64,000 nucleotides of DNA from Aciduliprofundum sp. MAR08-339 (GTDB lineage: Archaea; Thermoplasmatota; Thermoplasmata; Thermoplasmatales; Aciduliprofundaceae), in assembly GCF_000327505.1 (NCBI RefSeq), contig NC_019942.1, forward strand, positions 930,001 through 994,000, read 5' to 3'. Below are positions 40,245 through 59,672 of this stretch, piece by piece. The position numbers and the translations under genes are program-made. The notes below the pieces were generated by a model. It searched no databases and was not told the DNA's origin. It was given only the letters and a program-made list of their open reading frames with translations. Position 1 is the stretch's first letter. Each line of letters begins with the position of its first letter.

Positions 40245-41558
40245 TTAAAGTATTGGCAGTAGATTCTTTATCTCCCACTCCGTAACCTGGGCCCTGTATT
40301 CGCTCCACTCCTTGCGCTTCACATATAGAAAATGATTGAATACGTGCTCTCCAAGGACTTCTCGCATAAACTCGCTTCTGCTCAGGTGGTGCAATGCCTC
40401 GCCCAAACTCTCGGGCAGGGATTTTATTCCCAGTTCTTCTCTTTTTTCTGGACTCATCGCAAATATGTTCTGCTCAACGGGTTCGGGAGGCTCTACTCTT
40501 TTTGCTATTCCGTCAAGGCCGGCTGCAAGCATCACGGCAAATTGCAGATACGGATTTCCAGCAGGATCAGGATTTCTCAGTTCTATCCTTGTCTTCATGC
40601 CTCTCCCTGCGGGTACTCGTATTAGTGCACTTCTGTTTAGATTGGCCCAGGAAATGTAAACGGGTGCCTCGTATCCGGGCACAAGGCGCTTGTATGAATT
40701 CACCCACGAGTTCAGTATGGCGGTGGTCTCATCTGCATGCTTGAGCAATCCGCCAATGTAGTGAAGGGCCACATCGCTCAGTTCCCATGGCCCATTTGGG
40801 TCGTAGAACCTGTTTTCATTGCAATCTCTGCTTAAAAGACTCTGATGCACATGCATTCCGGTGCCGTTAACCCCGAATACCGGTTTTGGCATAAATGTGG
40901 CGTATAGCCCGTATTTGAGGGCAACCCTCTTTATCATAGCCTTCAGTGTTAGAATCCTGTCGGCTATGGTCAGAGCGTATCCGTATCTCAGATCAATCTC
41001 GTGCTGTCCTGGAGCCACTTCGTGATGTGCTGCCTCAGGCATGTAATCTATGTCTGCAAATATCCCTATTATCTCCTTGCGCACCTCCTCACCCTGATCA
41101 ACAGGGCCAAAATCAAAATAACCACCGTAGTCGTTTGGCTCCAGAGTTGGCTTTCCGTCTCTCATCTTGAACAGAAAAAATTCAAACTCTGGCCCTGTGA
41201 CGAATTTGAAATTCATACTCTCTGCCTTTTTCAGTGCTCTCTGAAGCACGTACCTCGGATCGCCATCAAATCTCTTGCCGTTTGGCAAATATATGTCACA
41301 TATGATAGTTGCCGTTTTGGGATCATCGGGCAGAATTTGAAACGTTTTTGCATCTGGAACCGCACGCATATCACTCTCGTCAATGGTGGCGTATCCTGCA
41401 ATGCTGGAACCGTCAAAGAGTATTCCCTCGCTTAGAGCCTTCTCAAGCATTATGTGAGGTATCATAACGCTCTTTACCTGCCCCAGAATGTCCATGAATT
41501 GCAGGTGTATGTACTTCACACTCCTCTCCTTCACCATTTTTAAAATCTCTTGCTGCAT
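40245..41558 (-). CDS. glnA: Glutamine synthetase
   Basis: Makes glutamine from glutamate, ammonia and ATP. The protein is 437 aa, short type I-alpha. Seen: MDILGQVKSVMIP, LFDGSSIAGYATIDESDM, GPEFEFFLF, AAHHEVAPGQHEID, GTGMHVHQSL, RSALIRVPAGRG, ELRNPDPAGNPYLQFA. The ATG at 41558 is leaderless: a box A (minus-strand AAAGTTTTAAAT, about 41580-41590) is 26 nt away. The TTG three codons upstream is not needed. A perfect palindrome at 41593-41612 abuts this box A on the upstream side, so repression or activation by a regulator is likely. Confidence 0.95.
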   Translation of the reverse strand: MQQEILKMVKERSVKYIHLQFMDILGQVKSVMIPHIMLEKALSEGILFDGSSIAGYATIDESDMRAVPDAKTFQILPDDPKTATIICDIYLPNGKRFDGDPRYVLQRALKKAESMNFKFVTGPEFEFFLFKMRDGKPTLEPNDYGGYFDFGPVDQGEEVRKEIIGIFADIDYMPEAAHHEVAPGQHEIDLRYGYALTIADRILTLKAMIKRVALKYGLYATFMPKPVFGVNGTGMHVHQSLLSRDCNENRFYDPNGPWELSDVALHYIGGLLKHADETTAILNSWVNSYKRLVPGYEAPVYISWANLNRSALIRVPAGRGMKTRIELRNPDPAGNPYLQFAVMLAAGLDGIAKRVEPPEPVEQNIFAMSPEKREELGIKSLPESLGEALHHLSRSEFMREVLGEHVFNHFLYVKRKEWSEYRAQVTEWEIKNLLPIL

Positions 41559-41579
41559 ATGAAACAATGATTATCCAAG

Positions 41580-41590
41580 ATTTAAAACTT
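41580..41590 (-). promoter_or_regulatory. TATA-like box of glnA
   Basis: Minus-strand AAGTTTTAAAT centred 26 nt before the ATG at 41558; the 41593 palindrome adjoins it. Confidence 0.55.
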
Positions 41591-41592
41591 TC

Positions 41593-41612
41593 TTTTACCA
41601 GATTTGGTAAAA
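41593..41612. promoter_or_regulatory. Perfect palindrome, likely operator between glnA and an aminotransferase
   Basis: TTTTACCA, four bases, TGGTAAAA: 8-bp arms with no mismatch, 3 bp upstream of the glnA box A. A third half-site TGGTAAAA stands at 41660-41667, just before the aminotransferase ATG. The arrangement suggests a dimeric regulator controlling nitrogen genes both ways. The half-site is not the GGAA-N6-TTCC of methanogen NrpR. Confidence 0.55.
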
Positions 41613-41668
41613 TTGAACATGGAATAAAGTTAATATCGCACGCACACATTACCCTCTGGTGGTAAAAA

Positions 41669-42871
41669 ATGTGGGATGAAGAATTCTCGGAGATCGCAAA
41701 ACGCCTTAAAGCATCGGAGATTAGAGAACTGCTTAAAGTTACCCAGGAGCCTGATATAATCTCGCTGGCCGGGGGTTTGCCAAGCCCCAAGGCCTTTCCC
41801 GTTGAAATAATCGGGGAAATCGTCTCCAATATGCTTGAAAAGCATGGGGATAAGATGCTTCAATACGGTTCAACCGAGGGTGTTAACACTTTCAGAGATA
41901 CTCTCGTTGATTTTCTCACCTCACGCTACGGGTTCAATAATCTAAAAAGAGACAATATTCTCATCACAACGGGCTCTCAGCAGGGTCTCTATCTACTCGC
42001 CAAGGTATTTATCGATCCCGGAGATTATGTGATCATTGAAGCGCCAACCTATGTGGGAGTTCTCACGGCGTTCCAGTCCTATCAGCCGCGGTACGTATCC
42101 ATTGAGATGGATGATGATGGAATGAGAATGGATATGCTTGAGGATGCACTTAAGAGATTGAAGGGTGAGGGAATAAGGCCCAAGATGATTTATACGATCC
42201 CAACTTTCCAGAATCCAGCGGGCGTGACCATGTCCGAGGACAGAAGAAAGAGACTTCTGGAACTGGCGGAGGAGTACAACCTTCTCGTTGTTGAGGATGC
42301 TCCCTACGAGGAACTCCGTTTCTCCGGTGAGCCTGTTCCCCAGATCAAGCGATTTGACCGCGAACACAGGGTTGTGTACCTCGGCACGTTCTCAAAGACC
42401 CTCAGCCCGGGAATGAGGGTTGCCTATATGGTGGCCCACGAGGAGATAATTCACAAGGCCGTGCTTGCAAAGCAGGGCATAGACCTGTGTACCAGTCCGT
42501 TCCTGCAGTATGTGGCTCAGGAGTACATCAGGGGTGGCTATTTTGAGAAACACATACCCAACATAATCAAATTGTACAGAGAAAAGAGAAATGTGATGCT
42601 GGATGCCCTTGAGGATTATTTCCCGGATGGCGTTAGATGGACTAGGCCCGATGGTGGAATGTTCCTTTGGGTAACTTTGCCTGAAGGAATGGATGCTGAA
42701 AAACTGTTCAAGAAGGCCATTGAGAAAAGGGTGGCATTTGTCATAGGTGCAGCGTTCTTCCCAAACAGGGACCACAGAAATACCCTGAGATTGAATTTCA
42801 CCTATCCATCAGAGGAAGAAATAAAGGAGGGTGTGAGGAGACTTGGCCAGGCGATAAAGGAAACCCTCTAA
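41669..42871 (+). CDS. PLP-dependent aminotransferase, class I (2-aminoadipate/aromatic type)
   Basis: 400 aa. Transfers amino groups to 2-oxoglutarate. Seen: IISLAGGLPSPKAFP, QYGSTEGVNTFRDTL, ILITTGSQQGLYLLAK, TIPTFQNPAGVTM, EDAPYEELRF and the PLP lysine in LGTFSKTLSPGMRVAY. The LAGGLP/FQNPAG marks belong to the group with LysN, kynurenine and aromatic aminotransferases; the amino acid used cannot be fixed. It is divergent from glnA, with the palindrome between. The ATG follows GGTGGT. Its end overlaps the M42 gene by 4 bp. Confidence 0.88.
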   Translation: MWDEEFSEIAKRLKASEIRELLKVTQEPDIISLAGGLPSPKAFPVEIIGEIVSNMLEKHGDKMLQYGSTEGVNTFRDTLVDFLTSRYGFNNLKRDNILITTGSQQGLYLLAKVFIDPGDYVIIEAPTYVGVLTAFQSYQPRYVSIEMDDDGMRMDMLEDALKRLKGEGIRPKMIYTIPTFQNPAGVTMSEDRRKRLLELAEEYNLLVVEDAPYEELRFSGEPVPQIKRFDREHRVVYLGTFSKTLSPGMRVAYMVAHEEIIHKAVLAKQGIDLCTSPFLQYVAQEYIRGGYFEKHIPNIIKLYREKRNVMLDALEDYFPDGVRWTRPDGGMFLWVTLPEGMDAEKLFKKAIEKRVAFVIGAAFFPNRDHRNTLRLNFTYPSEEEIKEGVRRLGQAIKETL

Positions 42872-59259: not shown

Positions 59260-59672
59260 ATTACTACGAGGAAATCGGGTTGACTACGGCAGGCGAGGTG
59301 GATATAATAGACATAACCCCAATGGTACAATCCATAGTTGACAGATCAGGAATAAGGAACGGAATGGCGCTGGTTTTTGTGATAGGATCCACAGGAGCGG
59401 TAACAACCATCGAGTACGAACCGGGGCTAAAAAAGGATCTACCCGCCGCACTTGAAAGGTTATTTCCCAAGAGTATTCCCTATGAGCATGAAAAAACATG
59501 GCACGATGGAAATGGCCACTCTCATATACGTGCCTCTTTTCTAAAACCCGATCTGTGCGTGCCCATAGTTGATGGAACCCTTGTACTTGGCACATGGCAG
59601 CAGATTGTATTTGTTGAACTTGATGTTAAAGAGAGAAAAAGGCGCGTAGCTGTGCAGGTTATGGGCGATTAG
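59256..59672 (+). CDS. YjbQ/UPF0047-family protein
   Basis: 138 aa. Seen: ALVFVIGSTGAVTTIEYEPGLKKDLPAALERLFP, HDGNGHSHIRASFL (metal His set) and GTLVLGTWQQIVFVELD. The family is annotated as a secondary thiamine-phosphate synthase-like activity in E. coli; its real role in archaea is open. Translationally coupled to the small dimer-fold protein. The 3' end overlaps the convergent HTH gene by 14 bp. Confidence 0.85.
   Translation: MNYYEEIGLTTAGEVDIIDITPMVQSIVDRSGIRNGMALVFVIGSTGAVTTIEYEPGLKKDLPAALERLFPKSIPYEHEKTWHDGNGHSHIRASFLKPDLCVPIVDGTLVLGTWQQIVFVELDVKERKRRVAVQVMGD

Follow-up and report, generated by a model that had tools for sequence, protein, structure and literature searches.

A perfect palindrome separates glnA from a divergent aminotransferase gene in an Aciduliprofundum genome (G000, a 1.44-Mb single-contig archaeal genome), which raises the question of whether it is an operator and, if so, for which genes and what kind of regulator. 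In the window (the whole stretch of DNA that was analysed, 64,000 nucleotides long), glnA occupies 40245..41558 on the minus strand and encodes a type I glutamine synthetase (TIGR00653, 521.7 bits; cut-off 429.15). The class I/II PLP aminotransferase (41669..42871, plus strand; PF00155, E 1.5e-39) had no NCBIfam equivalog at cut-off among the 25 matches listed. The preliminary description had placed the palindrome, TTTTACCA-GATT-TGGTAAAA, at 41593..41612 adjoining the glnA promoter, with a further copy of TGGTAAAA at 41660-41667, and all of this was confirmed. The full sequence is TTTTACCAGATTTGGTAAAA, the site has no assigned strand, its core TTACCA-N4-TGGTAA spans 41595-41610, and it lies directly upstream of the BRE/TATA predicted from the sequence for glnA (41580..41592, minus strand; TATA box TTTTAAAT at 41587-41580, BRE side at 41592-41588). 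Read in the glnA direction, the palindrome is followed by 8 bp, by TTTAAAT and then by about 25 bp to the ATG at 41558, the start kept in relatives, with the longest frame opening at TTG 41567 (window positions 41556-41567). This spacing suggests that the glnA message is leaderless and that the centre of the palindrome lies near −45. A role at the RNA level was set aside, as the palindrome is upstream of both promoters. At G000:C1:1394893-1396113 the genome encodes another glutamine-synthetase-like protein, with 37% identity to GlnA, that recurs in many genomes of the family.

The symmetry of the site proves nothing by itself, because the counts of such arms are close to those expected from base composition: the window contains one case of perfect 8-bp arms around a 4-base loop, where about one per 64 kb is expected, and ten cases when loops of 0-10 bases are allowed. 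Within the window, the 20-mer with up to three mismatches gave three matches against 0.35 expected from shuffles, the only exact one being at 41593-41612, and TGGTAAAA was present in eight copies against 2.66 expected, the five beyond the glnA-aminotransferase intergenic region all falling within listed open reading frames. The preliminary description had proposed a genome-wide motif scan, and this had a mixed outcome. The 18-mer form occurs exactly once in the whole G000 genome, and with up to three mismatches it was found at 87 places, compared with 85 for the reversed control. This lack of enrichment counts against an operator, and the idea of a broader regulon in G000, made up of sites with 2-3 mismatches, was rejected for want of any excess over the control. 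What did emerge from the scan of relatives was the presence of the exact core at glnA in all four congeners.

Conservation, and not symmetry, is the feature of the glnA palindrome that goes beyond chance. Each of four Aciduliprofundum species (G000-G003) has a single copy of the exact core, always between glnA and the aminotransferase gene, whereas the reversed control gave no exact match in the same four genomes, a difference that we count in favour of an operator. In a four-way MAFFT alignment the arms TTACCA/TGGTAA are identical in all species, as against 29 invariant columns among the 66 other intergenic columns used for comparison, from which the TATA boxes, the Shine-Dalgarno/ribosome-binding site and the arms were left out (hypergeometric P = 2e-4 with the arms taken as 12/12; a gap in the MAFFT alignment displaces one right-arm base, leaving 11/12 arm columns). 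The glnA TATA box is likewise invariant in 7/7 columns. The distance from TGGTAA to TTTAAAT is 8 bp in all six genomes in which at least the TATA-side half survives, including two from another genus (G013 and G015) in which just this half, TTTGGTAA, is intact at glnA; the invariant arms and the half-site with its retained spacing were both counted for an operator.

Outside the genus the site is scarce. Among 79 glnA upstream regions (80 loci were found, one of which, L220, was dropped before the count since its gene start was missing), the exact core was present in two, both from congeners already counted, and absent from 77. It is also absent from G012 (genus g3), although glnA and the aminotransferase gene are still divergent there, and in genera g2, g4 and g5 neither the palindrome nor glnA was found in the DNA examined upstream of the aminotransferase gene (up to 1500 bases). 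The absence from the 77 regions and from G012 implies that the site at glnA is recent or quickly lost, and it was counted against an operator. Across 18 genomes of the family, the exact core has eight occurrences in seven genomes, compared with one for the control: four at glnA, two inside frames of G006, one preceding nrdD in G005 and one in the polC-nadE region of G015. We regard the result as real but modest, the glnA palindrome being a candidate operator of a known kind, conserved at genus level, lineage-specific and with few targets.

A second site conserved in the genus points in the same direction. The polC-nadE region carries the core with one mismatch in all four Aciduliprofundum genomes, the polC-direction sequence being TTACCAATTTTGATAA in G000 and TTATCAATATTGGTAA in G001-G003, so that the imperfect arm is on opposite sides, and in G015 the same region has an exact core, the sole exact match in that genome. 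The opposite placement of the mismatch and the exact copy in G015 were counted for an operator, and no other observation is as strong an indication of a recognised site as this recurrence at an orthologous promoter region of another genus. The distance to the nadE TATA box is 17, 17 and 18 bp in G001-G003 and 17 bp in G015; that to the polC TATA box is 21, 21, 21 and 20 bp in G000-G003 and 10 bp in G015. In G000 the site adjoins polC alone, a frame judged by eye to be radical SAM-like taking the place of nadE, and the loss of nadE from this position was counted against an operator. NadE, the NAD synthetase, consumes ammonia, and PolC, DNA polymerase D, serves replication. Allowing one mismatch, the core was found at 29 places in the four genomes: four at glnA, four at polC-nadE, 19 within frames (open frames no shorter than 100 codons, taken as frames rather than established genes) and two outside (L252 and L259). 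The relaxed pattern TTAYCA-N4-TGRTAA occurs at 18 places in these four genomes against one in the control, an excess that was set aside as proof of a regulon given its composition: four places belong to one conserved coding stretch, four are at glnA and four at polC/nadE, one overlaps the ribosome-binding site of amt in G000, and the others are single.

These results lend partial support to the proposal that the palindrome is a shared operator of nitrogen genes. The conserved site between glnA and the divergent aminotransferase gene agrees with it, but the core was not found in the ammonium-transporter (amt) promoters of G000-G003, and the other conserved site is that at polC/nadE. The absence from amt was also counted against an operator. 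In G001-G003, the amt promoter has two tandem palindromes of type TTGAACANNTGTTCAA within 260 bp upstream, some copies imperfect (L116-L118), and farther upstream there is a palindrome ATAACTCAATTTTGAGTTAT, slightly shorter in G001; both are absent from G000. Three perfect palindromes TTTTCCAAWWTTGGAAAA with similar flanks and a further inverted repeat lie at G000:C1:818701, 1103046 and 1231284 (L113-L115), and suggest either a dispersed repeat element or a further operator.

The palindromic control site upstream of glnA, putative here, resembles the arrangement described in methanogens, where NrpR represses glnA through the operator GGAAN6TTCC (PMC2723118). It differs from that arrangement in sequence, in the lack of NrpR and in the absence of the core at amt. 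The glnA intergenic region contains TTACCA-N4-TGGTAA and not GGAA-N6-TTCC, and the NrpR domain PF01995 was found in none of the four Aciduliprofundum genomes while the M. jannaschii and M. acetivorans controls were positive, which upholds the earlier view that this is not an NrpR site. Other published work points to Lrp/AsnC proteins: glnA is activated by Lrp in Halobacterium (PMC2894021), and in Sulfolobus its control regions are bound by Sa-Lrp (PMC3584215). The archaeal Lrp/AsnC activators Ptr2, LysM and Ss-LrpB bind at constrained positions that precede the BRE by a few bp, and in the reviewed Lrp cases sites so placed activate (PMC2995911). Like these sites, the glnA palindrome is of dimer size, precedes the BRE by a few bp and keeps a constant distance from the promoter (8 bp to TTTAAAT in 6/6 genomes), and this match in position was counted for an activator operator. 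Unlike them, it is a single good palindrome, not a cluster, and it has an even 16-bp symmetry where the Lrp-type FL11 site is a 13-bp palindrome (PMC2995911).

All four Aciduliprofundum genomes contain Lrp/AsnC proteins (PF01037; 5-6 loci each). Three of the six in G000 have an N-terminal part that, judged by eye, is HTH-like, and these three are candidate regulators. The 150 bp preceding each Lrp-family open frame (23 loci, approximate starts) showed no TTACCA/TGGTAA palindrome, and no Lrp-type regulator was among the ten window ORFs scanned, though autoregulation or a regulator gene adjoining its target is common in Lrp/AsnC and not obligatory. The missing motif upstream of these frames and the 16-bp versus 13-bp symmetry were counted against an operator, and because of both the Lrp/AsnC family stays a lead and not an assignment. 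Judged by titles and abstract openings, none of the papers listed in the literature searches describes such a site in Aciduliprofundum, and no relevant title came up for the letters of the motif.

On the aminotransferase side, the predicted BRE/TATA (AATAAAG/TTAATAT; 41623..41636, plus strand) is invariant in 13/14 columns across four species, and the distance from TGGTAA to TTAATAT is 19, 20, 10 and 10 bp in G000-G003, with an additional half-site 10 bp from this TATA box in G001. The copy of TGGTAAAA at 41660-41667 had been taken for a third half-site of the operator and the ArsR-like protein at 59659 named as one candidate regulator; both parts of this proposal were rejected. The supposed half-site overlaps the ribosome-binding site of the aminotransferase gene (41658..41668, plus strand: GGTGG and spacer before the ATG), an identification made because the orthologue sequence GGTGA and the 3' end of the 16S rRNA of G000 itself, GGATCACCTCC, match. 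The anti-Shine-Dalgarno ATCACCTCC is complementary to 41658-41662, so that these bases combine 16S complementarity, a position a few nucleotides before the start and conservation in orthologues: GGTG is present in 16/16, as GGTGA in the 15 others and as GGTGG in the window, while TGGTAAAA occurs at this position in the window alone (1/16; 0/15 of the others). As for the ArsR-like protein (PF01022), its distribution does not track the palindrome: it is present in 16/18 family genomes, many of which lack the palindrome, glnA and its gene are some 90 kb apart in G001, and the motif was not found in the DNA upstream of the gene for the ArsR-like protein. An operator of three half-sites under this protein is thus already contradicted, despite the presence of TGGTAAAA where it had been noted, and we consider it extremely improbable.

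Three further explanations deserve more weight. That no trans-acting factor is involved, the palindrome either having arisen by chance and survived because divergence has been short, or acting as an extended core-promoter element, would fit the single palindrome found where about one was expected and a congener intergenic identity that is still 69-72%, but the arms outlast the surrounding sequence and its indels, and four genomes have the exact core at glnA and nowhere else, while another genus has an exact copy at a second, orthologous promoter region; we hold this to be quite unlikely. The regulator might instead serve DNA replication and dNTP supply and not nitrogen, glnA being included as the source of glutamine for nucleotides. 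The polC site, conserved in 4/4 genomes and G015 and still present in G000 although nadE no longer adjoins it, favours such a role, as does the exact palindrome about 60 bp upstream of nrdD, the anaerobic ribonucleotide reductase gene, in G005 (L248:1501-1516). This nrdD site is known from one genome only and may be due to chance, and the spacing to the nadE TATA box (17-18 bp) is steadier than that to the polC TATA box (10-21 bp), so that the idea strikes us as doubtful. Equally doubtful, in our estimate, is a repressor site, at which a dimer would cover the glnA promoter on its BRE side, blocking TFB/TBP when nitrogen is plentiful. The palindrome is right beside the glnA BRE, and glnA is repressed by NrpR in methanogens (PMC2723118), but it overlaps neither the TATA box nor the start site, and upstream-of-BRE sites activate in the archaeal Lrp cases reviewed in PMC2995911.

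Cumulatively, we think it likely that a dimeric HTH transcription factor binds the palindrome and controls glnA and possibly the aminotransferase gene. An HTH dimer would sit on the palindrome directly upstream of the glnA BRE and, once bound, would most likely help to recruit TBP/TFB and so activate glnA, as in archaeal Lrp-type activators. By this analogy, the regulator is probably an activator. With the promoters back to back, the aminotransferase gene may be controlled by the same factor, which probably also binds the polC-nadE intergenic region. The analysis shows the sequence, position, conservation and spacing of the site; binding by a protein, activation and a signal of nitrogen or glutamine status are inferences.

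To our knowledge, the control of glutamine synthetase in archaea without NrpR is poorly known. It is conceivable, if on the whole somewhat unlikely, that an undescribed regulator of the Aciduliprofundum lineage replaces NrpR and that TTACCA-N4-TGGTAA ties together glutamine synthetase, NAD synthetase and DNA polymerase D. If this were true, nitrogen or cofactor status and DNA replication would share one switch through this motif. A conserved operator with few targets offers a bait for isolating the regulator, and would reveal whether the lineage couples nitrogen assimilation to the synthesis of NAD and to DNA replication.
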